Origin: a virus
Reading direction: 5' to 3' (one strand)
IMG/VR virus record: IMGVR_UViG_3300045999_006012
Span: 1 to 32,600 of that record
Length of the DNA: 32,600 bases
Shown: piece after piece, positions 6,848-25,652 of the stretch
Numbering within the stretch: the stretch's first letter is position 1
How the letters are laid out: every line of letters begins with the position of its first letter
Notes under the pieces: generated by a model
What the model was told of the DNA's origin: nothing
Database searches by the model: none
The model's input: only the letters and a program-made list of their open reading frames with translations
Program-made: the position numbers and the translations under genes

Positions 6848-6852
6848 CACCC

Positions 6853-7671: not shown

Positions 7672-7691
7672 ATGCAGGAGGAAAGGGATCC

Positions 7692-7721
7692 AGCCCCGGT
7701 CCACAAGTCCGGGGCTTTTTT
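7692..7721 (+). terminator. Intrinsic terminator after the scaffold gene
   Basis: A perfect 8-bp stem, AGCCCCGG (7692-7699) with CCGGGGCT (7709-7716), has a 9-base loop and is followed by a T-run to 7721. This is a canonical Rho-independent terminator. It lies 20 bases after the scaffold stop and 130 bases before the capsid start, so some upstream transcripts should end here. Confidence 0.88.
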
Positions 7722-7722
7722 G

Positions 7723-7775
7723 TTGCTTGAGTGAGTGCCTACACTCTGGGCACCTGGACCCGCTCACTTAAGCGA
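7723..7775 (+). promoter_or_regulatory. Long hairpin in the capsid leader
   Basis: Bases 7723-7737 pair with 7761-7775 over 15 consecutive base pairs (three G-U wobbles, no mismatch) around a 23-base loop. It sits directly after the terminator T-run, at or near the expected 5' end of the capsid transcript. It could protect the mRNA end, be a processing site, or overlap a phage promoter. I see no clear sigma70 promoter (TACACT at 7740 has no good -35), and the promoter of any phage polymerase is not known to me. Confidence 0.55.
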
Positions 7776-7851
7776 AGGCCCTCTGCGGAGGACACCCCCA
7801 GTGAAAGGGAGGGAGGTCGGGTAACAACCCAACTTCTCTAGGAGTCGATCA
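7776..7851 (+). promoter_or_regulatory. Capsid 5' leader with small hairpins and strong ribosome site
   Basis: After the long hairpin come two short stem-loops: CCTC/GAGG (7780-7791) and GGGT/ACCC (7819-7830). Between them is a purine tract (AAAGGGAGGGAGG, 7805-7817). A strong Shine-Dalgarno sequence AGGAG (7840-7844) stands 7 bases before ATG 7852. This fits high-level translation of the capsid protein. Confidence 0.6.
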
Positions 7852-8835: not shown

Positions 8836-8844
8836 CGATCCAGC

Positions 8845-8876
8845 GGGGGCCTACGGGCCCCCTTCTTCTTTCTTCT
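8845..8876 (+). terminator. Intrinsic terminator after the capsid gene
   Basis: A 7-bp G/C stem, GGGGGCC (8845-8851) with GGCCCCC (8856-8862), is closed by TACG, which as RNA is a C(UACG)G loop of the very stable UNCG class. A pyrimidine tract rich in T (8863-8876) follows. It starts 9 bases after the capsid stop, and position and form resemble T7 T-phi. Confidence 0.85.
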
Positions 8877-8887
8877 GGAGCTGACCC

Positions 8888-9496
8888 ATGCCCATCACCC
8901 GCACGTCGTTTCTGGAGGCCGTCAACACGGTCCTGCGGATGCTGGGGGAAGCTCCCGTCAGCAGCCTCGATGGTGACTTCGGCCTGGCGCAACAGGCCAG
9001 CGACATCCTGATCGACGCCAGCCGCCGCCTGCAGATGGAAGGCTGGACGTTCAACACCGACTACGAGCGCACGCTGCTGCGGAACCAGGACAGCGAGATC
9101 CTGGTGGGCAACAACGTGCTGCGGGTGGTGGTCCACGAATACAACCATCCGCACCTGGACGTGGTGCAGCGTGGCGCCAAGCTCTACGACCGGCGCGGCA
9201 ACAGCTACCAGTTCGACCAGGACCTGAAGGCGGACGTCACCCTGGCGCTGGAGTGGGACGAGCTGCCCGAGCACGCACGCCGGTACATCACGGTGATGGG
9301 CGGCCGGCAGCTGCAGCAGCAGGTGATCGGCTCCAACGACCTGAACAACATGAACGCAGTCGAGGAGGCCATGGCCAGGTCGGCTTTCTTGGAGCTGGAG
9401 ACGACACTGGACAACCACAGCATGTTGCAGGGTGATCCCAACATCGGCGGCCCAGTGCTTGGGTACCTGCCGATCAACACCATCCGCCGGATGTAG
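8888..9496 (+). CDS. Tail tubular protein A, T7 gp11-like
   Basis: 202 residues (T7 gp11 is 196). It has the family pattern: AVNTVLRMLGEAPVSSL at the N-terminus, ASDILIDASRRLQMEGWTFNTDYE, LYDRRGNSYQFDQDL, and LPEHARRYITVMGGRQLQQQVIGS. Twelve copies form the adaptor ring between portal and nozzle. A ribosome site (GGAG) precedes ATG 8888. It ends 2 bases before the gp12-like gene, its usual partner. Confidence 0.93.
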   Translation: MPITRTSFLEAVNTVLRMLGEAPVSSLDGDFGLAQQASDILIDASRRLQMEGWTFNTDYERTLLRNQDSEILVGNNVLRVVVHEYNHPHLDVVQRGAKLYDRRGNSYQFDQDLKADVTLALEWDELPEHARRYITVMGGRQLQQQVIGSNDLNNMNAVEEAMARSAFLELETTLDNHSMLQGDPNIGGPVLGYLPINTIRRM

Positions 9497-9498
9497 CC

Positions 9499-12126
9499 AT
9501 GCCCCTGGTCAGCAGCACCATCCCCAACCTGATCAATGGGGTGAGTCAGCAGCCGGCTGCCCTTCGCCTGGCGTCACAGGCTGAGGCAGTCGTGAACTGC
9601 ATGCCGTCGCCAGTGGAGGGACTGAAGAAGCGCCCGCCCTTCAACCACATCGGCAAGCTGTTCAGCGGTTCAGCCGGCAGCGGCCGGCCCCACTTCACCG
9701 TCGTCGATCGGGACGGCATCAACAGGTGGGGGATCCTGCTGCAGGACAACGCCATCAAGGTGTTCGGCCTGGATGGCGTGCTGAAGTCGGTGGCCACCCC
9801 CAACGGCACCGGCTACTTGGACGTGGCAGGAGAGCCCAGCAAGCAGTTCCGGGTGGCGTCGGTGGCGGACTACACCTTCATCCTGAACCGCGAGAAGGTG
9901 CCGGCCCTGCTGTCTGGTGGCGGCGACCTGAGCCCGTCGTGGGGCACCAAGGGGATGGTGTTCGTGAAGGCCGCGGCCTACAACACCGAGTACAAGGTTA
10001 AGGTCAACGCTACCGAGGTGGCAGTGAAGACCAGGCCGCCGGGCGGCGACACCTTCTCCGCCACGTACAGCCAGTCCGGCACCACCGTCACCGTCACCTG
10101 CAACAACCACGGGTGGGTGACGGGATACCAGATCAACTTTGCCTCGCTGACTGGCACCGCGGTCAATGGCCAGTTCACGATCACCGTGACCGGGGCCAAC
10201 ACCTTTACGTTCACCGCGGCGCAGTCGTTGACCACCAGCGGCAACTGCTCCGTCAACTACAACCCATCGCTGTCGACGGTGGACATCGCCAAGCGGCTGC
10301 GGGATGCGCTCGCCGCCCAGGGCGCCCTGTCTGGGTTCACCTTCACGGCCGATGAGTACATCATCCGGGTGTCGAAGAACGACGGCGGCGCCTACGCGAT
10401 GGAGGCGACGGACGGGTACGACGCTGCGTCCATCCGAGCGGTGAAGGGCACGGTGGAGTCCCTGACCGACTTGCCCACCAAGGCGGAGCACGGCTTCATC
10501 GTGAAGGTGCAGGGGGACAGCAGCAGCGAGTTCGACGACTGGTACCTGCGGTTTGAGACCAACGCCGGCAGCGGGTTCGGAGACGGCAACTGGCAGGAGA
10601 CTGTCGCCCCGGGCGTCCCGTACAAGCTGGATCCGGCGACCATGCCGCATGTGCTGGTGCGCGAGAGCGACGGCACCTTCACGTTCAAGCAGTTCGACTG
10701 GAGCCCGAAGCTGGCGGGGGACGAGAACACCGCCCCGAATCCGAGCTTTGTCGGCAGCCAGCTCAGCAACATCACGGTGTTCCGCAACCGGCTGGTGCTG
10801 TTGTCGGACGAGAACGTGATCCTGTCGGCCGCGGATGAGTTCGACCGCTTCTTCCCCGAGACCGTGCAGACGGTGCTCGACTCCGACCCAATCGACATCA
10901 CCTGCGGCGGCAGCCAAGTGAACGTGCTGCTGGCGGCGGTGCCATTCGCCAGCACGCTGCTGCTGTTCTCCCGGCACGCGCAGTTCCGCATGGACAGCGG
11001 CTCGCTGACCGTGCAGCCGCTGACACCCAAGAGCGCCAGCATCACCCAGATGACGGCCTTTGAAACGCTGGACGGGTCGGATCCGGTGGCGGTGGGCCGG
11101 ACCATCTACTTCCCCATCCCGCGAGGGACGTTCGGCGGGTTGCGTGAATACTTCCTGCCGGACACCACCAGCCCGGTGCCGGCCAGCGACGAGGTGACGG
11201 CCACGGTGCCCCGCTACATCCCCGCCGACCTGGTGCAGATGGCCGCCACGGTGTCCGAGGAAGCGGTGGCGCTGATCACCAAGTCGCAGCCGAAGCGCCT
11301 GTACTTCTACAAGTTCTTCTTCCAAGGCGATCAGAAGCTGCAGAGCGCCTGGTCCTACTGGGAGGTGGAAGGGGACAAGCAGCTGCTGGGGGTCCAGTTC
11401 GTCGACAGCGACCTGTACGCCGTCGTGCAGTACGCCGATGGGGTGTACCTGGAGCAGGTGGTGGTGCGGCCGGAGAACGTCGACCCGGGCAAGGACTACG
11501 AGCTGCTGGTGGATCGCAAGGCCAGCCAGGCGGCCTGCACCGTGGCGCTGACCAACCCATCCGGCCTGGACGTGCAGTCGACCATCACGCTGCCCTACCC
11601 CCGCAGCACCGGGGGCGAGTACGTGGTGGTGGGCACCGGGGGCGTCGGCAACCCCCTGGCCCCGGGGCAGGTGGTGTTCCCCATCGCGCAGGGCGCCAAC
11701 ACCATCACGGTGCGGGGCAACCTGACCGCTGCGTCGTTCTGGGTTGGGGAGCTGTACACCATGCGGTACGAGTTCAGCACCCCCTACCTGAAGGAGCAGC
11801 CGCAGGGTGGAGGTGTGTCGATCATCGGCGGGCCCAGGCTGCAGATGCGGACCTGGACGCTGATGCACGACAAGTCAGGGCACTTTGAGCTGTGGATCAC
11901 ACCAAGGGGCCGGACGACCAAGAAGCACCCCTTCAACGGGCTGGTGATGGGCGACTCGGCGGTGGCACTGGGGACGGTGGCGCAGCAGGTGGGCAAGTTC
12001 CGTGTGCCGGTGATGGCGCAGAACATCGATACCAAGGTCGAGATCTTCAGCCGCAGCCCACTGCCCTGTCGAGTCCAGTCGGCAGAGTGGGAAGGCATGT
12101 ACTTCAGCAGGGCCGATCGACTGTGA
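9499..12126 (+). CDS. Tail tubular protein B (nozzle), T7 gp12-like
   Basis: 875 residues, longer than T7 gp12 (794). It starts with the family signature IPNLINGVSQQPAALRLASQAE, then NCMPSPVEGLKKRPP. It continues with NREKVP, SNITVFRNRLVLLSDENVILS, FPETVQTVLDSDPID, and LLLFSRHAQFRMDSG. Near residues 182-254 an extra beta-rich domain is present (NHGWVTGYQINF, then GTAVNGQFTITVTGANTFTFTAA), inserted where other gp12 proteins run from a TTPDG-like loop into ISTxxIA. This accounts for most of the extra length. The hexameric nozzle carries the fibres and is the exit channel for DNA. Confidence 0.94.
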   Translation: MPLVSSTIPNLINGVSQQPAALRLASQAEAVVNCMPSPVEGLKKRPPFNHIGKLFSGSAGSGRPHFTVVDRDGINRWGILLQDNAIKVFGLDGVLKSVATPNGTGYLDVAGEPSKQFRVASVADYTFILNREKVPALLSGGGDLSPSWGTKGMVFVKAAAYNTEYKVKVNATEVAVKTRPPGGDTFSATYSQSGTTVTVTCNNHGWVTGYQINFASLTGTAVNGQFTITVTGANTFTFTAAQSLTTSGNCSVNYNPSLSTVDIAKRLRDALAAQGALSGFTFTADEYIIRVSKNDGGAYAMEATDGYDAASIRAVKGTVESLTDLPTKAEHGFIVKVQGDSSSEFDDWYLRFETNAGSGFGDGNWQETVAPGVPYKLDPATMPHVLVRESDGTFTFKQFDWSPKLAGDENTAPNPSFVGSQLSNITVFRNRLVLLSDENVILSAADEFDRFFPETVQTVLDSDPIDITCGGSQVNVLLAAVPFASTLLLFSRHAQFRMDSGSLTVQPLTPKSASITQMTAFETLDGSDPVAVGRTIYFPIPRGTFGGLREYFLPDTTSPVPASDEVTATVPRYIPADLVQMAATVSEEAVALITKSQPKRLYFYKFFFQGDQKLQSAWSYWEVEGDKQLLGVQFVDSDLYAVVQYADGVYLEQVVVRPENVDPGKDYELLVDRKASQAACTVALTNPSGLDVQSTITLPYPRSTGGEYVVVGTGGVGNPLAPGQVVFPIAQGANTITVRGNLTAASFWVGELYTMRYEFSTPYLKEQPQGGGVSIIGGPRLQMRTWTLMHDKSGHFELWITPRGRTTKKHPFNGLVMGDSAVALGTVAQQVGKFRVPVMAQNIDTKVEIFSRSPLPCRVQSAEWEGMYFSRADRL

Positions 12127-12608
12127 GCCGGGCCTATGTGCGCAAGGCGATCCCCAGCGACATCCCTGCAGTGGCGGCAGACATGCGGCCAGCCGACAGG
12201 GCTGAGCTGCAGGCCAGTGGGCGTGACAACGCCGAGCAGTCGCTGCTGATTGGCCTGCTGCACGGCAGCCCCTGCATGACGATCTGCCGCGAGGACGACA
12301 CCCCCGTTGGGATGTACGGGGTGGTGCCCGCCGCTGAACGCATGGGAACGGTGTGGCTGCTGGGGACTGAAGGGCTGGTGTCAGATGCGAGAGTGCGACT
12401 GCGGTTCCTGCGTGAAGCCAAGGCCCATGTCGCCCGCTTCTTCGATGACTACGACCTGCTCTGGAACTGCGTCGACGCCAGGAATGAAGTCCACATCAGA
12501 TGGATCCAGTGGATGGGTTTCACGTTCATCGCTGAGCATCCAAACTATGGGCCAGAAGGTCGACGGTTCTTGGAGTTCTGCAAGGTGAAGCCATGTGCGC
12601 CCCACTAG
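12123..12608 (+). CDS. T7 gp13-like internal virion/assembly protein (GNAT-like fold)
   Basis: 161 residues from GTG 12123, which overlaps the gp12-like stop as GTGA. The C-terminal half matches T7 gp13: VWLLGTEGLV, then RLRFLREAKAHVARFFDDYDLLWN, then NEVHIRWIQWMGFTFI. The layout (an N-terminal IPSDIPAVAADM, then PVGMYGVVP) suggests an acetyltransferase-like fold, as in many gp13 homologues; no acetylation role should be assumed. T7 gp13 is needed for correct assembly of the internal core. It lies directly before the gp14-like gene as in T7 and overlaps it by 16 bases. Confidence 0.82.
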   Translation: MSRAYVRKAIPSDIPAVAADMRPADRAELQASGRDNAEQSLLIGLLHGSPCMTICREDDTPVGMYGVVPAAERMGTVWLLGTEGLVSDARVRLRFLREAKAHVARFFDDYDLLWNCVDARNEVHIRWIQWMGFTFIAEHPNYGPEGRRFLEFCKVKPCAPH

Positions 12609-13588
12609 CCGTCATCGCGCCGATCGTCGGCAGTGTTGCCTCCATTGGCCTAGGGATCTACAGCGCCTACTCCGGCTACCAAGGGGCCAAGGCGCAAGCG
12701 AACTACCAGTACCAGACGCAGCAGGCGCAGGCGGGGTACCAGTTCATGGAAGCCCAGCGGCAAATGGACTACCAGTTCCAAGAGCAGCTGCGGCAGTCGG
12801 AATACGTCTTCCAGAACCAGATGGCCGCCCGGCAGTTTGAGTACCAGCAGTCGAACCTGCAGTACGAGAACGAGGTGGCTGAACAGCAGCGCCGGTACCA
12901 GTACGAGCAGGCCGTCTACCAGCAGAACTACGAATTCCAGCAGCTGCAGACCGACCTGAGCCGTGGCTACGAACAGATGAGGGAGGACCAGCAGCGGTCG
13001 GTGATGGAGCTGAATGCCGAGCTGGCTGGCGTCGCCTATGCCAACGACCTGCGGCAGCTCGACGTGATGTTCATGCAGGAGGAGGAGGCCGCGGCGCAGC
13101 AGAAGCTGAAGGGGTCACGGGAGGCGGCGCAGATGCGGGCGGAGGTGCGGGCATCAGGGCGGGTGGGCAACACCGTCGACAACCTGGTGGCCGATTACTA
13201 CCGGCAGCAGGCGCAGTACGACTTCGCCACCAACCGCAACTTGGCTTTCACCGGCAGGGCAACGCAGGAGAAGAAGCGCGGGGCGCAGGCGCAGTACGCA
13301 GCGCGGAAGGTCAGCGAGCAGCCGTACATCCAGACGCCGTACGCCAACCCGGTCAGGGGGAATGCGCTGGCGCCAGGGCCTGGTGTCGCTCCGATGTACG
13401 GGCCGACGCCGATCCGGCAGCAGGTGACGAAGGGCACGGTGACGCAGCAGCCGGTGTATCGGTCCTACGTGAGCAGCACGCCGTACGTGCTGCAGGGCCT
13501 GGGCAGCATGCTGAGCAGCGGGGTGGATCTGGCCAAGGGCATCGGCGGCTACAACACTTGGAAGGCCGCTCAGCCTGGAAGGTCTTAA
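12593..13588 (+). CDS. Internal virion protein, T7 gp14-like, with hendecad repeat
   Basis: 331 residues, against 196 in T7 gp14. Like T7 gp14 it begins with Met-Cys and a short hydrophobic segment (LAVIAPIVGSVASIGLGIYSAYSGY) that can insert in a membrane. Residues about 38-136 are a Gln/Tyr/Phe/Glu-rich helical repeat of exactly 11 residues with an aromatic residue at the start of most units. A gp14-like region follows (EVRASGRVGNTVDNLVADYYRQQAQYDFATNRN). T7 gp14 leaves the head at infection and forms the outer-membrane part of the ejection channel. The order 13-14-15-16 supports the assignment. Confidence 0.85.
   Translation: MCAPLAVIAPIVGSVASIGLGIYSAYSGYQGAKAQANYQYQTQQAQAGYQFMEAQRQMDYQFQEQLRQSEYVFQNQMAARQFEYQQSNLQYENEVAEQQRRYQYEQAVYQQNYEFQQLQTDLSRGYEQMREDQQRSVMELNAELAGVAYANDLRQLDVMFMQEEEAAAQQKLKGSREAAQMRAEVRASGRVGNTVDNLVADYYRQQAQYDFATNRNLAFTGRATQEKKRGAQAQYAARKVSEQPYIQTPYANPVRGNALAPGPGVAPMYGPTPIRQQVTKGTVTQQPVYRSYVSSTPYVLQGLGSMLSSGVDLAKGIGGYNTWKAAQPGRS
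12704..13000 (+). repeat. Nine tandem 33-base/11-residue units in the gp14-like gene
   Basis: Codons for Y, Y, Y, Y, F, N, Y, F and Y fall at 12704, 12737, 12770, 12803, 12836, 12869, 12902, 12935 and 12968, exactly 33 bases apart. Typical units read YQFMEAQRQMD and YQFQEQLRQSE. An 11-residue (hendecad) period implies a long, nearly straight or right-handed coiled coil. Confidence 0.85.
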
Positions 13589-13591
13589 GCC

Positions 13592-16435
13592 ATGGCACGT
13601 CCATACCTGGGGGAGTCGTACGGCAACACCGATCGCCGCACGCCCGGCCGTCTGCTGGGTGGCATCCCCGAGGCCGCCAGCCAGGCACCGATCGGCACCG
13701 GCCAACTGCAGCAGCCTGCCATTCAGGCGGTGCAGCAGCTGGTCGAGACCTTTTCGCCCGCCGGGCAGGGAGCAACCCTGGGCGGCCCTGCCCAGGTGCC
13801 GACGCCACCGCAGCTGCCACAAGCGCAGAGCCCGGTCATCTCCCCGCTGCCGCGGCCGGTGCAGGCGCCCAACCCGGTGGTGCAGCAGAGCGTGGTGCAG
13901 GCGCCCAGCTACGCCCCCTACGTCGACAACATCACGCCACTGGCCCGGTCGCTGGCGGGTTTCAGCACCTTCTTTGAAAAGCTCACCGACTACGGGGTGG
14001 AGCAGGAGAAGCAGGCGGACGCCCGGGCCCAGCAGCAGGGCATGGCACTGGCCCAGGAAGCGGGCCAGGTGGGCGCATTCCAGTCACTGCAGGAACTGCA
14101 GAAGCGACTGGAGAAAGGCGTGGCCGAAGGGGCGGTCGGCTACGAGGACATGCTGCGGCGATTTCAAGCGGCAGATCCCCGGGCACTGCGGTACGCCACC
14201 ATCAACCTGCAGACCGCCTACATCGACGGCAACGTCGCAACGCTCAAGGAGAGGCTGTTGCAGACCAAGACGCTGCTCGACGGCCGCCCGCTGGAGTCGG
14301 TACCGGCCAGCGACCCGGAGTTTCAGCGGGCCATGACTGCGCTGATGTTCCCGCAGGGGACGGCGCACATCATGCCGGAGGTGTGGAAGTCCCGGCAGCA
14401 GCAGATCCAAGCCACGTACGGCTCTGCCATGGCGGACCAGGAGTCGCGCTTTGGTGGGTTCAAGACGCAGAAGGCCAAGCAGTCCCTGACGGCTGTGATC
14501 GACAGCGCTGGGGAGGAGATCGTCAGCGGCACCGTCCCTCCAGAGCAGGTCGCGTCGAAGTTGAGCCTGGGCCTCAATGGCTTCTTCCTCGACAGCGGCC
14601 AGACCACCGAGGAGTACCAGAAGGAGAAGCAGGGCCTGGTCAAGCAGCTGGTCGGCGCCACGCTGATGGCATCCGGTGGCAACTGGGGCCGGGCCAAGGT
14701 GGCGCTGAGCCGACTTCCGGAGGTGATGGCCCAGGTGACAGCGGGCCCCAATGGCGAGCTGCTGCTGGATCAGATCGGCGGCAAGGCTGCGCTGCTTGAG
14801 GTGGTGCAGGAAGCGCAGAAACAGGTGATCGAGCAGCAGAACCTGCAGGACGGCCTGGAGCAGCGGGAGGCCAGGGAGCAGCTGCAGGTTGATCTGCAGC
14901 AGATGCTCACCCCCGAAGTGCTGGGCGATCCCGTGGCTGTCGACCAGACAGAGGAGCTGATGCTGCGCCGCGGCCGGGAGCTGTACGGCAGCAACCCAGA
15001 GATGGCAGCGCAGTACGAGGAGGGAGTGCGCAAGCACTTCAGCGGGATTCGCGCTGGGTTCGTCGTGCCGACCCAGGAGAAGAACGAGGTGGCGCTGTGG
15101 GCTGAGATGGCCCAGAACCCCAACGTCGACTTCACCGACCGGATCATGCAGCTGCAGCAGTCCGGCCAGCTGAGCTACCAGGCGGCCAAGGGGTTCCTGC
15201 AGGCGCAGTCGTCGCGCAACCGGGAGGACAACAAGGCGAACTACCAGGTGCTCCGCGGCCTGCAGGATGACCTGAAAAAGCGACTGGAGGCGCAGTTTGC
15301 CCGGGGCAACTCCGAAGGTGGAGCCAACCTGACACCCAACGAAGCGAAGCAGCTGTGGGAGGCGATGGGCCAGCTGTATCGCCAGGGCGACGAGATGATC
15401 CGCAAGGCGCCAGGGCAGGACATGACCACCCAGCTGGGCGGCCTCTACAGCAACGCCCTGCAGCAGTCGCTGCCGCAGCAGACGCCGCAGGCCCCAGCCG
15501 GCGCCACGCCGGAGTCGATCAACAAGGGCCTGGTGCCGGGCGGTCGCGGCAATGCGCAGCAGAACGCCCAGCTGCGTCGAAAGGCGGAGACCCAGCCGCT
15601 GTATTCCAAGGAGCGGATGATCCAGCAACTCGACGGCGTGCTGACCGGCAAGCCGCTGGACGACGCCACCCGCAACATCATCCGCCGAACGGGCATGAAG
15701 CCCAGCGAGTTCTTTCAGCGGCAGATGCAGCTGCACGGGATCCCCGTCGACAGCGATGCACAGAAGCGGCTGCAGGAGCTGGATGGCGGCGACCTGGTGT
15801 CACGGGGGCCGGCCGCCCGGCCCAACCCGTACCTGGCGTCTGCGATCCGCCTGAGGGACCAGATCGCCACCGGCCTGCTGAATGTCGTTGCCCCGCCGGC
15901 CTATGCCGCCAGGAGGGATAGCACCCCTTTTTCGGGTAGCGCCAGCATGGGGCAAATCAGCGGCTCCCGGGTGGCTGTCAGAAGCGTGCCGCCACAGACC
16001 CGGGCGCTTCTGCGCACCATCAGGTTTGCAGAAGGCACCGCCCATTCAGACGGCTACCGGACCATGTTCACCGGGGCCAAGTTCAGTGACCTGAGCCGCC
16101 ACCCCCGGCGCATCAACAGGTCAAACGGCTTGGCGTCTGACGCGGCTGGCGCGTACCAGTTCCTGTCGACGACATGGGACTCCGTGGGCGGCGGAGCTAT
16201 GACACCTGAGCGGCAAGACATGGCCGCCATCCGACTGGTCCGCAACCGAGGCGTCGACCCACGACTGCCCAGCGGCTTCACCCGACAGGTAGCGGACAGG
16301 CTGGCTCCCGAATGGGCCAGCTTCCCGACCATGCGCACTGGCACCAGCTACTACGGCCAGGGCGGCAAGAGCTATGCGGAGCTGAAGGCGTACTACGACC
16401 AGGTGCTGCGCGAGGAGATGGCGCGGGGCCGCTGA
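13592..16435 (+). CDS. Internal virion protein, T7 gp15-like, with C-terminal lambda R-type lytic transglycosylase
   Basis: 947 residues; T7 gp15 is 747. The body (about residues 100-700) is helical and Gln-rich and is assigned to the gp15 family by position and pattern (FSTFFEKLTDYGVEQEKQADARAQQQG). The C-terminal 145 residues look like the phage lambda endolysin R (a lytic transglycosylase, GH104 type): IRFAEGT with the probable catalytic E814, KFSDLSRHPRR, AAGAYQFLSTTWD, ERQDMAAIRLVRNRGV, LAPEWASFPT, then GTSYYGQGGKSY. T7 instead carries its peptidoglycan-cleaving domain at the N-terminus of gp16. The domain probably makes a local hole in the wall during DNA entry. It starts 3 bases after the gp14-like gene. 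Confidence 0.88.
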   Translation: MARPYLGESYGNTDRRTPGRLLGGIPEAASQAPIGTGQLQQPAIQAVQQLVETFSPAGQGATLGGPAQVPTPPQLPQAQSPVISPLPRPVQAPNPVVQQSVVQAPSYAPYVDNITPLARSLAGFSTFFEKLTDYGVEQEKQADARAQQQGMALAQEAGQVGAFQSLQELQKRLEKGVAEGAVGYEDMLRRFQAADPRALRYATINLQTAYIDGNVATLKERLLQTKTLLDGRPLESVPASDPEFQRAMTALMFPQGTAHIMPEVWKSRQQQIQATYGSAMADQESRFGGFKTQKAKQSLTAVIDSAGEEIVSGTVPPEQVASKLSLGLNGFFLDSGQTTEEYQKEKQGLVKQLVGATLMASGGNWGRAKVALSRLPEVMAQVTAGPNGELLLDQIGGKAALLEVVQEAQKQVIEQQNLQDGLEQREAREQLQVDLQQMLTPEVLGDPVAVDQTEELMLRRGRELYGSNPEMAAQYEEGVRKHFSGIRAGFVVPTQEKNEVALWAEMAQNPNVDFTDRIMQLQQSGQLSYQAAKGFLQAQSSRNREDNKANYQVLRGLQDDLKKRLEAQFARGNSEGGANLTPNEAKQLWEAMGQLYRQGDEMIRKAPGQDMTTQLGGLYSNALQQSLPQQTPQAPAGATPESINKGLVPGGRGNAQQNAQLRRKAETQPLYSKERMIQQLDGVLTGKPLDDATRNIIRRTGMKPSEFFQRQMQLHGIPVDSDAQKRLQELDGGDLVSRGPAARPNPYLASAIRLRDQIATGLLNVVAPPAYAARRDSTPFSGSASMGQISGSRVAVRSVPPQTRALLRTIRFAEGTAHSDGYRTMFTGAKFSDLSRHPRRINRSNGLASDAAGAYQFLSTTWDSVGGGAMTPERQDMAAIRLVRNRGVDPRLPSGFTRQVADRLAPEWASFPTMRTGTSYYGQGGKSYAELKAYYDQVLREEMARGR

Positions 16436-16479: not shown

Positions 16480-19400
16480 ATGCCCACCCAGACGATCAAG
16501 GACCCGCAGACCGGCGAGGAGCGGCAGGTCTACGTCGCGCCCAAGGGCATGGCCAAGCAGCCGACGCAGAGGCCAGCGGCCAAGCCCAGGCAGCAGGACA
16601 ATGGCTTGTTCGGCCTTGGCATCCAGCCGGTCGACCTGTTCCCCACCGCGGCCGTGGGCCAGCAGGCATTTCAGGCCGCGGCGCAGGGTGTCACCGCTGG
16701 CATCCAAGAGTTCCAGCGGACGGGTGACTTCACCAAGGCGCTGACTGCTGCGCAACGGGGATCTGCTCAGTCGCTGGAAGGCAGCCGGCCGGTGCAGACC
16801 CTCAGCCGGATTGGATACAACGCCGTTGCCGGCCTGGTGCAGGAGGTGAGCGACGCCGCGCAGGAGACGTTCGGCGGCAAGGCGACCACCGCACAGAACA
16901 AGAACCTGCCGCTGTTCGGCATGCTGCCGCCGCTGGCCAAGGCCAAGAGCAGCGGCCCGGCTGAGGACCTGCTGACCAACATTACGCAGGCGGCCCTGGC
17001 GTGGGTGCCCGCCGCCCGCGGCGTGAACCTGGCGGCCAGGGGGCTGAAGCTGCTACCTGGCGCCACCGCTGTCGGCAACACCGCCGGCACCGCGCTGAAT
17101 GCCCTGAAGGCCACCAAGGCAGCGCAGGCGGTGGCCAAGGTGCCGGGCGCTGCTGCAGTCGGCCGGGCGGTCGCCAGCAACACCGTGACCAAGGCCGCGG
17201 CCACTGGCGCCGTGGTGGACTACACCGCCTTCGATCAGCACGAGGGCCGGCTGGTTGACCTGGTGGATCAGCTGCAGCAGACGGTCACGGGCACCCCGCT
17301 GGAGGGGCCCCTGGTCGACTACCTGAAGTCTGACCCCCGTGACGTCGGCGCCACCGGCCGCCTCAAGAACGTGCTGGAAGGCGCCCTGATCGGCACCGGC
17401 CTGGAGGTGGCACTGCGCACCTTCCGTGCAGCCAGGAGCGCCGTGCAGGCCCGCAACGCAGCGCCTGAGGCCAAGGCCGAGGCACTGCAGCAGCTGCAGC
17501 AGGACAGCGATGCGCTGAGCCTGGAGCTGGTGCGGCAGGCCAGCTCCACCCCGGATGCCGGCCCGGCCCTGTCGGTCGACATGCCGCAGGCGCAGCCGAT
17601 GCCGCGGCCGGACATGCAGCCGCCGCAGTACAGCCAGGTGGCAGAAGTCAACCCGCAGACCATTGCGGTGGACCCGCAGCGGTTCCAGTTCAAGGAAGCC
17701 GGCCGCCTGACCAAGAGCGGGGCCAGCGGCTCCCTGGCGGAGTCCAGCGACTTCAACGACGTGCTCGCTGGGGTGATCAGCGTCTGGCGTGACCCGGCCG
17801 ATGGGCAGACCTATGTGGTGAACGGCCACAACCGGCTGCGGCTGGCCAGGGAGAGCGGCGCCAGCAACGTGCTGGTGCGCTACCTGAGCGCCGAGACGGC
17901 AGAGGAGGCCCGGGCCATCGGCGCCCTGCAGAACATCGCAGAAGGCCAGGGCACCCCGGTCGATGCGGCCAAGTTCATGCGGGACACCGGCAAGAGTGCC
18001 GAGGACATGGCGGCCGAAGGCATCAACCTCAGCGGCCCTGTCGCTTCCCAGGCGGTGCCGCTGAGCCGGCTGCCGCAGAACCTGTTTGACAGGGTGGCCA
18101 CCGGCAAGCTGGACCTGGCCAAGGCCGCGGCCCTGGGCTCTGAAGCCTTGGACCCGCAGATCATCAACGACGTGGCGACTGAAGCCACCAAGCGGAAGTG
18201 GTCGGCCGACAAGATCCTGCAGGCCATGCAGGAAGCGAAGTTCGCCCAAACCCAAGCCACTGGCGACGACCTGCTGAGCCTGCTGGGAGGCGAGTGGGCC
18301 AGCAAGACCAGCAACTTCAACCAGCTGCTGGACGTCCGCACCGAAGCCTTTAAGTCGCTGCGCGAGGAGATGGTGGCGCTGACGTCGGCCGCCCGGGAGG
18401 GGCGCCGCGGAATCCTTGAGGCCGCTGGCAACGTGATCGACGTGGCCGGCAGCCAGGCTGCACGGGGCCAGGCTGCCCAGGCGGTGGAGGTGTTCAACCG
18501 GGTGACGGGCTACGTGGGCCCGGTCCGTGACCTGCTGAACGAGATGGCCGGCCAGGTCAGCGGCAAGCGCACCGCCAAGTTGGTGGTGGGCGAGAACCTG
18601 GACCGCCTGCGCCAGGCGATCGACGACGAGATCAACGGGCCGCGACCGCCACTGGATGAACCGCCGGCCGCGGCTGCGCCAGAGCCGAGTGTCCCAAGCG
18701 CGGGAAGCTCGGCTGCCTTCACCCCGCAGCAGGCATCTGAAACCAGGGCCCTGTTCGACCGGGCCCTGGCCACCCTGCCGCCGGAGAAGCGTGCAGCACT
18801 GCAGGCAGAGCTGGAGGCCCGCGCCGCTCGCGGCCAGGCCCTGGCGTCCGAGGTGGACGCTGATGGCCGCACATGGGTGGGCGTCGCCGAGTACAAGGAG
18901 CTGCCGGTTGAGGCGCAGCGTGCCCTGGCGCTTGAGGTGATCGAAGACATCCGCAGGGTGGCGGGTGACGACGTGGCCATTCGCTTCAACAATGCTTTTG
19001 AGCTGATCCAGCGCCCCCAGGCTCACGGCGGTGGCGACAAGAGGATCCTGGCCGGCGGGATGTACGACCCCATCGGAGATGTGATCAGCATGAACGGGTG
19101 GCTGTATGGCACCCCGGCCAGCAGCAAGAAGCAGACCGCCTTCCATGAGGCTTTCCACCGGGTCCAATACAACTTCCTCACCGAGAAGGAGCTGAAGGCC
19201 CTCAACAGCATGTGGTCGCAGCTGAAGCTGTTTGTGGGCGACGGCTCCGACCGGCGCACCCTGATCGAGCAGCAGGCGGTGGCCTTCCAGAAGTACGCCT
19301 ATGCACGCAAGGAAGGTATCGACCCCATCGCCTACCTGGCTGGCGCTGATGAACAGTCGCTGAAGGGGTACAAGGCAAACGAAGACGGCAGCACCCAATC

Positions 19401-22400
19401 GCTGACCGGCATGGAAAAGGCCACGCAGGACATTGTCGTGGCTGGCGTCAACATCCTCGACAACCTGCTGGACTTCATCGAGAAGGCCAACAACTACCTG
19501 CGGGGTCGCGGCTGGACTTCGGTCAAGTCGATCTTCGACCAGGCGTACACCGGCAAGCTGGCCGAAACCCGGGGCGACCTGGGCAATGCCCTCGACGACT
19601 ACGGCTCCCGGGCCTACATCCTCGACGAGATCAAGGCCCTGAAGACCGTCCCCCTTGGCGACAAGACGGCGCGGGGCGTGCTCTACAGCGAAGTCGATCC
19701 AGTGCCCGTCGCCGCACCCACGCCGGACGAGCGGTGGGCGCAGCAGCTGGTCGATCAGATCCTGGCCAACCGCCAGGCGATCGAAGACGGTGACATGACC
19801 CTGGACGACCTGCTGCAGAACAACGTGCTGAAGGTCCAGAGCCCCAGCGGTGCCACCGTCTACGTGCCCGACGCGCCACCGGAGATGGTGGAGGCGTACC
19901 GGGCGCACAGCGACCTGGTGAACCGGGTGGACGCCACCGGCATTCCGGTGATGTCCGAGGAGCGGATCGCGTTCGACACCGCTGCCTGGCTGGAGAAGTC
20001 CAACTACGACAGCAAGGCGGTGCTGGAGAACCTGGCCCGCATCAGCGGCCCGCTGTCGAACTACCAGGAGAACCTGGTGGCGCTGCGAGCAGCCATGCTG
20101 CTGGCCGACCACAACAACTACCAGGCCGGCATCGCCGCCAACAAATGGCTGAACGGCGCAGTGGATGAGTCGGCCGACATGGGCCAGCTGGCCGCTGAGC
20201 TGGTGAGCGCAGCTGCTGCAGCAGACCGCGCCAACCGTGCAGTGGAGTCCGTCACCCGGCCGCTGGGTCAGCTGATGCGCAGCACGCAGATCCGCCGGCC
20301 GCTGCCTGGTTCGCTGCCGTTCGACACGCCATCCGCCGGCCGCAACATCGCGGAGGAGCTGGAGGAGGCCATGGTCAAGGAGGCCGACGTGCCGGTGTCG
20401 GAAACCATCGGCCGCCAGGTGAGCCCCGAGCTGGAAGAAGCCATCCGCACGGGTGACTTCAGCAGCCCGAAGGTGGCGGAGGAGCTGGACGCACTGGCAC
20501 TCAACAGCGCCCAGGGTGCTGTCACGCCCGGCTACGCCCAAGGCTTCTGGTCCAACCTCAACAAGTCGCTGGGGGTCGGCGCCAACGGCCTGATGATGTA
20601 CCGCTCCAGCCAGCTGCTGAGCAGCGGCATCACCTTCTGGGGCAACGTGATCAACAGCGCCCTGCGGACGGTGGAGCTGCCGTTCACCCAGGCGGTGGGC
20701 GCCATGATGCAGGGGGCCCCGGTGCGGGCCAGCCGGTCGCTGATGATCTACGGCCAGTACGTCAGCAACCTGCTCAACGCATTCCGCATGGGCGTGGAAT
20801 CGTTCAAGGTGGGCCGCGGCCTGTTCGACCTGAACCGCGAACAGGCCGACTTCTTAGACCGGCTGGCCCAGCAGGACGCCCAGGGCGAGCTGGTCGCCTC
20901 CCCACAGCAGGGCGAATGGGATCTGAACACCATGCCCTGGGTGGCGATTCAGGACAAGAGCAACTGGGCCGTGGCGCAGAAGCGCATCTGGCAGGGCCTC
21001 AACCTGTCCACCCGCCTGCAGGTGTCAGCCGACAGCGCCTTCAAGACGCTGGTGGGCCAGTCTTTTGAGTACGTGCGCAACCTGCAGCCAGGCCTCGACA
21101 ACGCCGTGCGGCTGGGCATGGACGGCAACAGCAAGGAGGCGTGGAAGTTCGCCACCGACTACGCCCGCGCTGCTGTCGATCGGTCGATGCGTGACGTGAC
21201 GATCAACGGCCGCACCATCCTCGATGGCGTGATGGAAAGCCCCCACGCGCAGACCGCCATGCGGTGGGCCACCTTCACTGACGACATCTGGGCGCAGATG
21301 CAGCCCCGCACCATGTCCTACGGGATGAAGGTGGCAGAGGCCAAGGGGCTGAAGGACGTCGACGCGCAGAAGTTCGCCCAGGACTACGTGGTCAACGGGC
21401 CGCGGATCTTCGGCAAGGGCATGGACGACATTCCGTTCTTCGCCCGCACCTTCAGCATCATGCCAAAGATCTGGCAGACGGGTCTCGACTCCCCGATGGC
21501 CCCGCTGTTTGCGCTGATCCAGCCGTTCAACCGCACCCCCGGCGACATCGTGAAGTCGGTGGCACGCAAGACACCACTGGCCCCGCTGGTGGATACCTGG
21601 TGGCGAGACGTCTTCTCCGAGGACGCCATGACCCGCGACCGGGCGGTGGGCGACATCGCAGTGGGCGCCGCGGCCATCGCTCTGGCCAGCGTTGCCATGA
21701 CGCACGGCCGGGTGCAGTTCACCGGAGGCGGCCCCATTAACCCAGAGGCCCGTCGCAAGTGGAATGAGCAGGAGGGCAAGCAGCCCTACTCGTTCCGCAT
21801 CCGCACAGGCGAGGACGAGAACGGCAACCCCATCTACTCCGACTGGGTGTCGATGCGGGCCATGGACCCCTTCTCTTCTCTGCTGGGCGGCCTGGCCGAC
21901 TACCACGAGCTGGCGAACAAGGTGTCCGTCGAAGCGCGGGAGCGACTGGGCGGCGCCCTGGTGATCGACCTGGTGGCAGCTGTCGCCGCCGGCCAGCTGC
22001 AGAAGTCGTACTACACCGGCTTCTCCGAGTTCGCGCAGATGGTGCTGGGCCTGGGCGAGCTGGACACCGCACCCAACAAGCGGCACCCCACCGCCCGGTA
22101 CGTGGAGCGACTGGTTGCCAGCTTTGTGCCGTACAGCAGCGCACTGCGAGCCGGCCGCCGGATTGAAGATCCCACCGCCAGGGAGGTGCCGGCCAGCGAC
22201 AGCCCCAACCTGGTGATGCGCCTGTTTGAGGAGACGCTGAACGAGATCCGCAACGCTGTGCCGGGGTGGTCGGAGAGCCTGCCGCCCAAGCGCAACTGGA
22301 TCACGGGTGAACCCATCGTGCTCAGCGGCATCTGGGGTGATCAGTTCCTGCCGCCGGAGTCCCCCTGGCTGTCGGCCCTGATCCAGTACAGCCCGGCGTC

Positions 22401-22881
22401 GCCGTTCCAGCTGCGGGGCGAGCCCGGCGAGATGGTGCTGCGGGAGATGGGGCAGCTGACCGGCCGCGGCGCTGGCTTTGTTGGCCCCAGGCCCACTGAC
22501 TTCACCGATGGCGGCAAGGTCAAGGCCAACCGCCTGGCGCCCGACGAGTACGAGCAGTACGTGCTGGCCATCAGCCGTACGCCCGACCAGTTCGGCCGCA
22601 CCCTGGTGCAGGCCCTGGAGGAGGAGATCAAGAGCGACCTGTACCAGCAGAACCCGCAGGGGGCGCCCAGTGAACAGGTGACGAGCCTGCGTGCTGCGGC
22701 CCTGAATACGGTGATCACCGACTTCATGAAACTGGGCCGCGAGGCATTCCTGAGTAGCCCGGCTGGCAAGCGACTGATGGACAACAAGGACTGGGCGGAA
22801 GGTGCTAACCGGGACGTGCAGTTCCGGCTTAAATACGGCCAGGAGATTGATCCTGCGGCATTCGTGGAGGCACTGCGCTGA
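16480..22881 (+). CDS. Giant internal virion (ejection) protein, gp16-like, with ParB-like and zincin domains
   Basis: 2133 residues; T7 gp16 is 1318. I see no T7-like transglycosylase at the N-terminus. Residues about 165-260 are Ala-rich and hydrophobic, ending in VVDYTAFDQHEGRLVDLV. Residues about 390-560 resemble a ParB-like domain: NGHNRLRLARESG (448-460) and then ALQNIAEGQGTPVDAAKFMRD, as in ParB-like units of DdrB-type polyvalent phage proteins. Around residue 889, HEAFH (889-893) is a zincin metal site, with E930 (LIEQQAVAFQKYA) as a plausible third ligand. The C-terminal third has gp16-type features: a hydrophobic segment at 1725-1745 and WITGEPIVLSGIWGDQF near 1945. Such proteins enter the cell with the DNA. 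Domain calls are by eye; the gp16 role follows from position and size. Confidence 0.85.
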   Translation: MPTQTIKDPQTGEERQVYVAPKGMAKQPTQRPAAKPRQQDNGLFGLGIQPVDLFPTAAVGQQAFQAAAQGVTAGIQEFQRTGDFTKALTAAQRGSAQSLEGSRPVQTLSRIGYNAVAGLVQEVSDAAQETFGGKATTAQNKNLPLFGMLPPLAKAKSSGPAEDLLTNITQAALAWVPAARGVNLAARGLKLLPGATAVGNTAGTALNALKATKAAQAVAKVPGAAAVGRAVASNTVTKAAATGAVVDYTAFDQHEGRLVDLVDQLQQTVTGTPLEGPLVDYLKSDPRDVGATGRLKNVLEGALIGTGLEVALRTFRAARSAVQARNAAPEAKAEALQQLQQDSDALSLELVRQASSTPDAGPALSVDMPQAQPMPRPDMQPPQYSQVAEVNPQTIAVDPQRFQFKEAGRLTKSGASGSLAESSDFNDVLAGVISVWRDPADGQTYVVNGHNRLRLARESGASNVLVRYLSAETAEEARAIGALQNIAEGQGTPVDAAKFMRDTGKSAEDMAAEGINLSGPVASQAVPLSRLPQNLFDRVATGKLDLAKAAALGSEALDPQIINDVATEATKRKWSADKILQAMQEAKFAQTQATGDDLLSLLGGEWASKTSNFNQLLDVRTEAFKSLREEMVALTSAAREGRRGILEAAGNVIDVAGSQAARGQAAQAVEVFNRVTGYVGPVRDLLNEMAGQVSGKRTAKLVVGENLDRLRQAIDDEINGPRPPLDEPPAAAAPEPSVPSAGSSAAFTPQQASETRALFDRALATLPPEKRAALQAELEARAARGQALASEVDADGRTWVGVAEYKELPVEAQRALALEVIEDIRRVAGDDVAIRFNNAFELIQRPQAHGGGDKRILAGGMYDPIGDVISMNGWLYGTPASSKKQTAFHEAFHRVQYNFLTEKELKALNSMWSQLKLFVGDGSDRRTLIEQQAVAFQKYAYARKEGIDPIAYLAGADEQSLKGYKANEDGSTQSLTGMEKATQDIVVAGVNILDNLLDFIEKANNYLRGRGWTSVKSIFDQAYTGKLAETRGDLGNALDDYGSRAYILDEIKALKTVPLGDKTARGVLYSEVDPVPVAAPTPDERWAQQLVDQILANRQAIEDGDMTLDDLLQNNVLKVQSPSGATVYVPDAPPEMVEAYRAHSDLVNRVDATGIPVMSEERIAFDTAAWLEKSNYDSKAVLENLARISGPLSNYQENLVALRAAMLLADHNNYQAGIAANKWLNGAVDESADMGQLAAELVSAAAAADRANRAVESVTRPLGQLMRSTQIRRPLPGSLPFDTPSAGRNIAEELEEAMVKEADVPVSETIGRQVSPELEEAIRTGDFSSPKVAEELDALALNSAQGAVTPGYAQGFWSNLNKSLGVGANGLMMYRSSQLLSSGITFWGNVINSALRTVELPFTQAVGAMMQGAPVRASRSLMIYGQYVSNLLNAFRMGVESFKVGRGLFDLNREQADFLDRLAQQDAQGELVASPQQGEWDLNTMPWVAIQDKSNWAVAQKRIWQGLNLSTRLQVSADSAFKTLVGQSFEYVRNLQPGLDNAVRLGMDGNSKEAWKFATDYARAAVDRSMRDVTINGRTILDGVMESPHAQTAMRWATFTDDIWAQMQPRTMSYGMKVAEAKGLKDVDAQKFAQDYVVNGPRIFGKGMDDIPFFARTFSIMPKIWQTGLDSPMAPLFALIQPFNRTPGDIVKSVARKTPLAPLVDTWWRDVFSEDAMTRDRAVGDIAVGAAAIALASVAMTHGRVQFTGGGPINPEARRKWNEQEGKQPYSFRIRTGEDENGNPIYSDWVSMRAMDPFSSLLGGLADYHELANKVSVEARERLGGALVIDLVAAVAAGQLQKSYYTGFSEFAQMVLGLGELDTAPNKRHPTARYVERLVASFVPYSSALRAGRRIEDPTAREVPASDSPNLVMRLFEETLNEIRNAVPGWSESLPPKRNWITGEPIVLSGIWGDQFLPPESPWLSALIQYSPASPFQLRGEPGEMVLREMGQLTGRGAGFVGPRPTDFTDGGKVKANRLAPDEYEQYVLAISRTPDQFGRTLVQALEEEIKSDLYQQNPQGAPSEQVTSLRAAALNTVITDFMKLGREAFLSSPAGKRLMDNKDWAEGANRDVQFRLKYGQEIDPAAFVEALR

Positions 22882-25652
22882 TGGCCTATTCCTACGTCAT
22901 CTACACCGGGAACGGGGCCAACACGCAATTCAGCGTGCCCTTTCCGTACCTGCGTAGAGAGCACGTCTTTGTCTCTGTGAACCGCGTGTCAGCCGCGTTC
23001 ACCTGGGTTGACGGAAGCACCGTGCAGGTGACGCCGGCACCAGCCAGCGGGGCCCGGGTTGAGGTGCGTCGGACCACCCCGGTCGATGTGCCGCTGGTCA
23101 CGATCGCTGACGGGTCGACGCCTGTCGCCGCGGACTTCAACACCAACAACCTCCAGCAGACCTACATCAACCAGGAGCAGGACGACCAGATCGAGGACGG
23201 CATTTTCGTCAACAACCTGGGCAACCTGGATGCAGGCGGGAAGCAGATCAAGAACGTCGGCAACCCCGTCGACGCGCAGGATGCCGTCACCAGGAGCTAC
23301 GCCGACAACTGGTTCGCCACCTACGGCGAGAAGTACCTGGGCGCCTACTCCTCTGACCCTGTGTCAGGGCCCGGCGGTGCGCCACTGCAAGAAGGCAGCC
23401 TGTACTTCAACACCGTCACGAAGCGGCTGCGGGGTTACTCCGGTGGCAGCTGGGCCGACACCGCGGCGCCCAGCGACCTGTTCCGGTGGAAGCGCACTGC
23501 AGAAGGCGGCGAGACCAGCCTGAGCGCCAGCGACGACAACGGCCTGCCCTTGGCGTACACCGCCGACCTGGAGCAGGTCTATGTGAACGGTGCGCTGCTC
23601 GCCCGTGGCGTCGACTACGTGGCGATCAACGGGGTATCGATCACCGGCCTGGCGCCGCTGAGCGCAGGCGACGTTGTGGAGGTGCTGTCCTTCAACGGCT
23701 TCACCGTCGGCATCACGCCCACCGACGTCGACTTCACGGCCCTGGGCGCAGCAGCCCAGCCGCTGGCCGATGCCGACCTGCTGCTGGTCCGCCAGGGCAT
23801 GGTCAACAAGAAGGTGAGCGCAGGGGTGCTGCGGACTGAGCTGGCCACCACGGCGCAGGCAGCCGAAACAGCAGCAGAGGCCGCGCAGGCTGCAGCTGAA
23901 ACCGCTGAGATCAACGCAGAGGCCGCGGCCGTCAACGCAGCTGGGGCGCGTGACGCAGCGATCATTCAGGCGGGGCTCTACGCCACTGAGGCGGCAGGCC
24001 GCGCAGCCGTCGCTGATGGCCAGGCATTCAAGGTGCAGGGCGCAGGCGACATTGCTGCACTTGAGTACCGGCGAGTCAACAGCACCACGTCGACCCTGCT
24101 TGCCATCTACCCAGCGGCCAGTGCCGTCTGGGCCATCCGCGAGGACATTCACGACTCCCGCCTAGCGGACTACGTGGGCGCCGGGCCGCTGCAGCCGATC
24201 GTCACCGACAACAACGACAGCATCGTCCTGGGCTTCGACGGCACCAAGTCGATGGTGGTCGGCGCCGGCCTGATCAACGAGGCCAACCTGCAGGAGCAGA
24301 CCGAGCTGGAGGTGCTGGGCTCCCTGTTCGTCAGCGAATACACCGGCACCGGGCCCGTGTACCCGATCGTGACCGACCGGGAAGGCCGGGTGATCCTGGG
24401 CTACAGCGTCAGCACTGGCGGCTTGATCGGCGCAGGGGTGGGCTCTGCCGGCACGTCGGCGGCCACGCCACTGGCGGAGCCGCCCATCGCCAAGGCGTAC
24501 AACCACCTGCTGTCCTACGGGCAGTCGCTGTCCATTGGTGGCGCCGCTGGCGGCCCGCCGATCTCCGCCACACAGCCGTACAGCAACGTCACCTTCGACG
24601 GAGGCCCCCGGGCTGGCGACCAAGTGACGTACAGCTACTCACCGCTGAAGCCCCTGGTGGAGGAGCTGGATGCCGGCGGACGAAGCGAGACCATCTGCTC
24701 TGGCGCCGCCAACTATGCGCTGACCCTGGCGGCGACAGAGGACGGCGTGACGCCATCCGGCCATGTGATCCTGGCATCTGCGCCTGGCCTTGGCGGTGCG
24801 GGCATCAACGGCCTGAAGAAGGGGTCGCTGCAGTACACCAACGTCTTCCTGCAGCACGTCACGCAGGCGAAGGCACTGGCGGTCGACTACGCCGCCCATG
24901 CCTTCTGCTGGATCCAGGGTGAAGCCGATGGCAACCTGGGCACCACGTACTCCACCTACCGCTCGCTGCTGGAGCAGCTGCAGGTCGACATCGAGGCGGA
25001 CATCAAGGCGATCAGCGGGCAGACGTCGCCCGTGTACTGCTTCACCTACCAGACGTCATCCAGGGTGACGATCAACAGCGCAGCAGTGACGCTGGCCCAG
25101 CTCGACCTGGCGCAGAAGAATGCCAAGTTCACACTTGCGACACCCTGCTACCACCTTCCCTTCTCTGACGGGACGCACTTGACGCCCGATGGGTATAAGT
25201 GGCTGGGTGCATATTTCGGCAGGTGCTACAAGCAACTGGTGTTTGATCGCGTCAAACCGAAGTTCCTCAACCCGCTGTCGGCCACCCGCCGGGGGAATGT
25301 GATCCGGGTGCGATTCGATGTGCCGGCGCCGCCCCTGGTGCTCGACACCACCACGCTGGCCCTGGCCACCGACTTTGGTTTCAAAGTGCTGGACGGCGCC
25401 TCGACGGCAACGATCAGCAGCGTGTCGATCGACGGCTCCGATGCTGTGATCGTCCTGTCGGCCACCCCCACGGGCGTCGTGAAGGTCCGCTACGGCCTTG
25501 ATTACCTGGGGGTCGGACTTACGATCACGACAGGAGCCTCTGGGAACTTGCGCGACAGCAGCCCCGACTCGATCACGATTTCAGGGGTATCGCGGCCTCT
25601 GTACAACGTCTGCCCGCACTTTGAGCTGACGGCCATCACCATCGGAGAGTGA
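22881..25652 (+). CDS. Tail fibre with T7 gp17 N-terminus and C-terminal SGNH esterase-like domain
   Basis: 923 residues. The first 150 match the T7 tail fibre attachment domain (YVIYTGNGANTQFSVPFPYLRREHVFV, DFNTNNLQQTYINQEQDDQIEDG). An Ala-rich trimeric coiled coil follows (about 315-360), then two copies of a 22-residue repeat starting at residues 430 and 486. From about 540 the sequence has SGNH/sialate O-acetylesterase (CE6-like) signatures: GQS with S549, FCWIQGEAD with E681 and D683, and SDGTHLTPDGY with D763 and H766 as the probable acid and base. The last 110 residues look beta-rich. It probably binds host surface polysaccharide and removes ester groups. Its ATG overlaps the gp16-like stop (TGATG). 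Confidence 0.9.
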   Translation: MAYSYVIYTGNGANTQFSVPFPYLRREHVFVSVNRVSAAFTWVDGSTVQVTPAPASGARVEVRRTTPVDVPLVTIADGSTPVAADFNTNNLQQTYINQEQDDQIEDGIFVNNLGNLDAGGKQIKNVGNPVDAQDAVTRSYADNWFATYGEKYLGAYSSDPVSGPGGAPLQEGSLYFNTVTKRLRGYSGGSWADTAAPSDLFRWKRTAEGGETSLSASDDNGLPLAYTADLEQVYVNGALLARGVDYVAINGVSITGLAPLSAGDVVEVLSFNGFTVGITPTDVDFTALGAAAQPLADADLLLVRQGMVNKKVSAGVLRTELATTAQAAETAAEAAQAAAETAEINAEAAAVNAAGARDAAIIQAGLYATEAAGRAAVADGQAFKVQGAGDIAALEYRRVNSTTSTLLAIYPAASAVWAIREDIHDSRLADYVGAGPLQPIVTDNNDSIVLGFDGTKSMVVGAGLINEANLQEQTELEVLGSLFVSEYTGTGPVYPIVTDREGRVILGYSVSTGGLIGAGVGSAGTSAATPLAEPPIAKAYNHLLSYGQSLSIGGAAGGPPISATQPYSNVTFDGGPRAGDQVTYSYSPLKPLVEELDAGGRSETICSGAANYALTLAATEDGVTPSGHVILASAPGLGGAGINGLKKGSLQYTNVFLQHVTQAKALAVDYAAHAFCWIQGEADGNLGTTYSTYRSLLEQLQVDIEADIKAISGQTSPVYCFTYQTSSRVTINSAAVTLAQLDLAQKNAKFTLATPCYHLPFSDGTHLTPDGYKWLGAYFGRCYKQLVFDRVKPKFLNPLSATRRGNVIRVRFDVPAPPLVLDTTTLALATDFGFKVLDGASTATISSVSIDGSDAVIVLSATPTGVVKVRYGLDYLGVGLTITTGASGNLRDSSPDSITISGVSRPLYNVCPHFELTAITIGE
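24168..24401 (+). repeat. Two-copy repeat in the tail fibre
   Basis: Residues 430-451 (DYVGAGPLQPIVTD and then IVLGF) and 486-507 (EYTGTGPVYPIVTD and then VILGY) align without gaps, 56 residues apart. They probably form small beta modules between the coiled coil and the esterase-like domain. Confidence 0.7.

Follow-up and report, generated by a model that had tools for sequence, protein, structure and literature searches.

The window analysed in this work, a 32,600-nucleotide stretch of viral DNA (positions 1 to 32,600 of IMG/VR record IMGVR_UViG_3300045999_006012), contains a giant gene on its + strand, a single unbroken open reading frame (ORF) at 16480-22881 encoding 2133 amino acids (aa). 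The N- and C-terminal parts of the product form an ejection-type chassis related to internal virion proteins of other phages, and the middle part is a slot that holds a ParB-fold domain and a predicted zincin metallopeptidase. The following features were recognized in the gene:

16480-22881, + strand: giant fused protein in which an ejection-type chassis carries ParB and a predicted zincin (2133 aa, homologues found)
16480-17631, + strand: N-terminal chassis, aa 1-384, of which aa 162-328 are homologous to internal virion protein D of Pelagibacter phage HTVC011P
17497-19728, + strand: cargo slot, about aa 340-1083, with Ala/Pro-rich linkers; its content varies among close relatives
17632-18459, + strand: ParB NTPase-fold domain with helix-turn-helix (HTH), aa 385-660 (model, Foldseek, TIGR00180, HTH_ParB)
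17821-17847, + strand: Box II (P motif) NGHNRLRLA, with G449 and R452 forming GxxR (residue invariance)
17929-17976, + strand: Box III-like QNIAEGQGTPVDAAKF, with N485, G491, D495 and A496 invariant (alignment)
18847-19509, + strand: predicted zincin metallopeptidase domain, aa 790-1010 (aligned homologues, model, motif invariance)
19144-19158, + strand: HEAFH active-site motif, aa 889-893, in a predicted helix at aa 880-899 (invariance, model)
19267-19269, + strand: E930, predicted to be the third zinc ligand; it sits in a later helix (model positions 139-155; invariance, model)
20680-22878, + strand: C-terminal chassis, aa 1401-2133, internal virion protein family (phrog_6651, hhalign to HTVC011P, ProddE)

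A preliminary description of this DNA had proposed an ejection protein with ParB-like and HEAFH metallopeptidase domains. The 2133-residue frame at the position of T7 gene 16 (gp16), NGHNRLRLA (aa 448-456), HEAFH (aa 889-893) and E930 all lie where it had put them; the second ParB motif, QNIAEGQGTPVDAAKF, occupies aa 484-499.

Fusion to a protein of the DNA-ejection type, also proposed there, was borne out by profile comparisons. With hhalign, aa 162-328 matched internal virion protein D of HTVC011P (98.4%, E 5.6e-15) and the protein of Desulfovibrio phage ProddE (92.7%), and a second block, about aa 1590-2095, matched the same HTVC011P protein (98.3-98.5%). The C-terminal chassis matched ProddE with 99.5%, and aa 1400-2133 matched phrog_6651, 'internal virion protein', at 7e-20. 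It had no match in a search of the genome contigs collection. Homologues of the chassis carry the annotation 'internal virion protein D'. The two blocks matched by HTVC011P are about 410 aa apart in the HTVC011P protein and about 1265 aa apart in the window protein, and the extra length is the site of ParB and zincin.

The content of this slot differs even between closely related proteins. L010 shares 60% identity with the window protein in aa 1-726 and 75% in aa 1074-2133, but has a PARP-like ADP-ribosyltransferase (ART) where the zincin would be (Pfam PARP 6.8e-4, below cut-off; an iterated profile found 19 related domains). L011 has retained ParB and lost the zincin, L028 has a DUF3990/ART-PolyVal-like domain in the slot, and in L229, whose C-terminal chassis is 74% identical to that of the window protein, the slot holds only an Ala/Pro-rich linker. 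Because the earlier loci had been found through ParB, the search was repeated with the C-terminal chassis alone (alignment A5), and 46 complete proteins were counted, with a 725-aa fragment left out. ParB was present in 35 of the 46: together with zincin in 28, with zincin and ART in four, with ART in one, and without zincin or the main ART family in two, one of which is on the L028 contig with its DUF3990-type ART. The others had zincin only (five), ART only (one) or no detected cargo (five). On a chassis tree of 52 rows the fewest changes that account for this distribution are 6 for ParB, 7 for zincin and 4 for ART, all three being minimum values. The strongly supported seven-row clade of the window alone comprises four detected states (ParB + zincin, ParB + ART, zincin only and none). 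The existence of ParB-only, zincin-only, ART-only and empty proteins shows that no module is required for chassis function, and the single-module members suggest that each module is useful alone.

These counts also bear on the idea that ParB and zincin belong to the ejection machine as structural elements or for handling DNA, for example as an anchor or ratchet on the incoming DNA, and are not cargo aimed at the host. The frequency of ParB among the complete chassis proteins, with its HTH and clamp-type fold, is consistent with such a role, and the C-terminal part of T7 gp16 (gp16-C) is believed to pull DNA in as a ratchet (PMC8954989). However, ParB has been gained or lost at least six times and the zincin at least seven times on a chassis that was kept, five members lack both, the homologous pelagiphage chassis has neither, and the same ParB domain is present in unrelated proteins of the MuF type. 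Taken together, we consider a structural role improbable.

For aa 385-660 the AlphaFold model (pLDDT 83, pTM 0.68) shows a ParB fold. The best 24 Foldseek matches in PDB were all ParB, Noc or KorB structures (E 2.9e-6 to 1e-3, probability 1.00), several of them CTP- or CDP-bound, and the matches take in the HTH. TM-scores by query length were 0.26-0.42, therefore the relative placement of the domains is unlike that in the solved ParB structures. Sequence profiles gave weak matches in the same register (ParB 7bnr, E 0.015; 6sdk and 6t1f, E about 0.1), and TIGR00180 matched at 8.2e-5, below its curated cut-off. HTH_ParB, which comes after the ParB fold, was found in 7 of 40 family members, and Pfam PF02195 fails to reach the ParB family of the giant protein. 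The family search collected 87 hits; in all 68 distinct ParB-domain sequences N448, G449, H450 and R452 are invariant, and the invariant residues of the family also include Q403, K405, W436, D438, R478, N485 and D495. In canonical ParB the counterpart of NGHNR is Box II (GxxR), and that of QNIAEG..T..DAA is Box III. According to a 2025 survey of the ParB-CTPase fold (PMC12704722), from which the GxxR definition of Box II is taken, replacement of the GxxR arginine by alanine abolishes NTP binding, and the choice of nucleotide is not predictable from sequence; for the latter reason we do not name the nucleotide of this domain.

The preliminary description had likened the domain to ParB-like nucleases of the DdrB type. 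The ParB part of this assignment holds, the DdrB part does not: Pfam ddrB-ParB (PF18763) matched neither the window nor the records of nine relatives, with P1 DdrB as control scoring 5.9e-42, and hhalign of the ParB domain to DdrB was negative. Because the domain is not DdrB-like and resembles the CTP-type ParB/KorB/Noc proteins with HTH, nuclease activity cannot be assumed, and the term is to be taken as an analogy. A weak match to Pfam ExsE (PF18286, E 0.04; 3kxy, E 0.49), which falls inside the ParB fold, was disregarded. The match to phrog_21 (PHROGs v4), labelled 'portal protein' (1.8e-46), was also rejected; its alignment (profile positions 1002-1287) is confined to the ParB segment and thus reflects a shared ParB domain, not a portal. 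Since phrog_21 contains this ParB domain near its C-terminal end, ParB-bearing proteins may be wrongly called portals.

Iterated searches with the predicted zincin yielded 50 aligned homologous domains. H889, E890 and H893 are invariant in 44 of 44 sequences and E930 in 43 of 43, at identities down to about 20%. In an enlarged set HExxH is kept in 52 of 53 sequences, the exception being a 48-residue fragment at a contig end. From the composition of the giant protein 0.003 HExxH motifs would be expected by chance; one is present. The suggestion that E930 might be the third ligand agrees with its invariance and with its position in a helix after the HEAFH helix, and this helix order is that of the zincin core of polyvalent metallopeptidases (MPTases) described in PMC5512222. 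In comparisons by hhalign with MPTase-PolyVal, P1 DdrB and the N4 MPTase, the best alignments landed on their HEXXH without being significant. PF18818 had no match to the zincin, and it missed P1 and N4 themselves too. Among the Pfam zincin families there was nothing convincing (one member matched Peptidase_M30 at 0.047).

An alternative for the HEAFH region is a helical stretch whose metal site is degenerate or does not support catalysis. The absence of a convincing Pfam match would fit this, as would the model, which has a pLDDT of 67, a pTM of 0.51, no more than two short strands separating the motif helix from the N-terminal helix, and no Foldseek match. In contrast, the invariance of all four residues in such divergent relatives, together with the helix order, argues for a working site, and an inactive one seems to us unlikely. 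Thus, what stands of the proposed HEAFH metallopeptidase is an intact zincin-type motif, invariant in relatives, whereas the zincin fold was not confirmed by the model; we regard the domain as likely to be catalytic. Compared with its near-twin L001, the window protein is 99.5% identical in the C-terminal chassis and 89% in the zincin. The divergence is concentrated at aa 901-1000 (19180-19479), which are 77% identical, as against about 97% for the rest of the gene. Positive selection is unsupported, as synonymous change is raised in the same segment as well; the combination fits local exchange.

In one group of marine phages cargo and chassis are encoded by separate genes. The uncultured phage MedDCM-OCT-S31-C1 (Nohivirus) and nine IMG/VR contigs (L079-L087) have a separate ParB(+zincin) ORF of 1154-1569 aa, which is directly followed by a conserved ORF of about 1140 aa where complete. 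The profile of the downstream ORF matched the C-terminal chassis with 93% (E 2.4e-7); the middle segment is collinear but weaker (50%). The split gene pair supports a functional association of cargo with chassis. In L061 (6270-10830) a ParB ORF is directly followed by an ORF with a terminal ART-like domain (7e-34), possibly a further split version.

These split genes are relevant to the view that the zincin is a maturation protease only, which cuts the giant protein before or during packaging so that the pieces are ejected separately and host proteins are never cut. P1 DdrB is processed to about 76 kDa, with self-cutting inferred by Iyer et al. 2017 (PMC5512222). In every protein that holds both ParB and zincin, the zincin lies between ParB and the C-terminal chassis, and in the split group the two parts are separate genes already. 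On the other hand, there are zincin-free chassis, some with ParB or ART cargo (L010, L011, L028, L275), and zincin-only chassis with no known cargo to free, and the N4 virion RNA polymerase is packaged unprocessed although it has a protease domain (PMC5512222). On balance, maturation as the sole function appears rather unlikely.

The same ParB domain was also found beside MuF (L062), MuF and Zeta toxin (L066), ART-PolyVal and PBECR3 (L075), and 2H phosphoesterase and GGDEF (L073). These combinations belong to the domain network that was described for polyvalent proteins in 2017 (PMC5512222). The L066 protein (5058-10277, 1740 aa) combines MuF, a Zeta toxin-like kinase and two ParB copies; L062 and L064 also have two copies.

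The giant protein and its relatives combine chassis homology, a modelled ParB fold and motif invariance with an architecture in which cargo was repeatedly swapped, lost or split off. The explanation that we favour, and regard as probable, is a polyvalent effector inside a podophage ejection protein, in which a chassis fused to cargo in its middle slot is injected with the DNA. The N- and C-terminal parts would be packed in the head and leave it with the DNA, and the slot would serve as a bay for enzyme or DNA-binding modules that enter the host envelope or cytoplasm within the ejected protein. The ParB-fold cargo would be an NTP-binding switch with HTH, predicted to bind DNA under nucleotide control, and the zincin would be a protease of the gluzincin type that is predicted to cleave proteins of the host and/or to free cargo from the chassis. 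Because relatives swap, add or drop modules, the injection machine probably also brings in enzymes that act on the host; they may have an anti-defence role, as the preliminary description had suggested. As the modules are dispensable to the chassis and occur separately, host-directed roles are favoured over a purely structural or maturation role. For the protease we give an effector function an even chance; pure self-release, which is possible, ranks below it. A more specific scheme, which we consider improbable, is that ParB is a nucleotide-gated clamp which loads on the incoming phage genome at ejection, the protein tethering, shielding or pulling the DNA while the adjacent protease or ART disarms the host.

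Several observations weigh against the polyvalent-effector explanation. No homology was detected to T7 gp16, the best-studied gp16 (hhalign probability below 1% with T7 and pelagiphage gp16 profiles), and the chassis had no PHROG match to the T7 gp16 family phrog_342. The gp16 position named in the preliminary description holds; 'gp16-like' rests on position and role because T7 gp16 is not detectably related to the window protein, HTVC011P or ProddE. The low-confidence zincin model (pLDDT 67) matched no solved fold by Foldseek in PDB or BFVD, and the slots scored as 'none' could contain domains too divergent for detection.

The analogy to polyvalent proteins was well chosen, as ParB and a predicted zincin, with ART in relatives, are carried on a virion-protein chassis. 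Like the polyvalent proteins of PMC5512222 (P1 DdrB, N4 virion RNA polymerase, MuF fusions), which are predicted to be injected, the giant protein is a large virion-linked multidomain protein of a family with ParB-fold, zincin, ART and other conflict domains. It differs from them in being carried by an internal virion protein of the T7 position (phrog_6651) and in having a ParB that is not DdrB-like; in PMC5512222 'internal virion' occurs nowhere and 'podovir-' only three times. With T7 gp16 and other podophage ejection proteins (PMC8954989) it shares gene order, large size and the location between gp15 and fibre, but it has 2133 aa, compared with 609-1337 aa there. In contrast to T7 gp16, no N-terminal transglycosylase was found in the giant protein, and it is the gp15-position gene that has a lysozyme-like domain, as in K1E. 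Fold, HTH, Box II GxxR and the Box III asparagine are shared with ParB/Spo0J, Noc, KorB and the fusions of the 2025 survey (PMC12704722); among the phage fusions given there are those with domains of unknown function and methyltransferases, and nowhere in its main text do the words polyvalent, portal, peptidase or ADP-ribosyl occur. Gene 21 of the Prochlorococcus phages P-SCSP1 is a direct homologue with ParB, zincin, ART and chassis, about 30% identical over aa 385-2104, which differs by its length (2571 aa) and the additional ART. Its name 'internal virion protein' was a guess that its authors made from size and position, without finding genes that resemble it (PMC9860041).

Polyvalent proteins, ART cargo of head-packaged proteins and mosaic ejection proteins are already known. 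In the openly accessible papers searched we did not find polyvalent cargo in a T7-position internal virion protein, a ParB-CTPase-type domain in such a protein, or a demonstrated exchangeable slot. The analysis provides a domain-level reading for giant unannotated virion genes of marine phages, including cultured Prochlorococcus phages, and suggests that the ejection apparatus of short-tailed phages also serves for protein delivery, with a cargo slot whose content can be exchanged. Close relatives with full, empty and swapped slots are natural comparisons for the role of injected enzymes in host range and defence evasion. Candidate anti-host enzymes can be drawn from the cargo families.

The genes around the giant gene are, in upstream-to-downstream order, head scaffold, capsid, gp11-like, gp12-like, gp14-like, gp15-position, the giant gene and a T7-type tail fibre. 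The giant gene is assigned to the gp16 position because it is flanked by the gp15-like ORF and the T7-type fibre and lies 3' of the capsid, gp11-like and gp12-like genes. Its closest neighbours are:

12593-13588, + strand: gp14-like internal virion protein gene (Pfam T7_gp14 6.5e-4, below cut-off)
13592-16435, + strand: gp15-position gene with a C-terminal endolysin/transglycosylase-like domain (phrog_90 9.4e-29 at aa 775-939; Pfam 0.006)
22881-25652, + strand: gene for a T7-type tail fibre; it and the giant gene overlap at the latter's stop codon (Pfam Phage_T7_tail 2e-40)

The endolysin/transglycosylase-like domain, which T7 has on gp16, is here at the C-terminus of the gp15-position product. 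A family-A DNA polymerase was not found in the window, in the records of four relatives or in P-SCSP1c, with the T7 control being positive. This agrees with the MPP-C cyanophage clade, which lacks DNA polymerase; the window may also be an incomplete piece of a genome. TerL is ~75% identical to that of Prochlorococcus phages P-SCSP1. The tail fibre has at aa 637-782 a SASA (sialic-acid acetylesterase-like) domain scoring 4.5e-5, just under cut-off, which is possibly a surface-sugar esterase. A minus-strand gene at 30050-31384, beyond TerL (also on the minus strand), is related to tail proteins (phrog_5939, 1.3e-81), an unusual position for such a gene in a T7-like genome.

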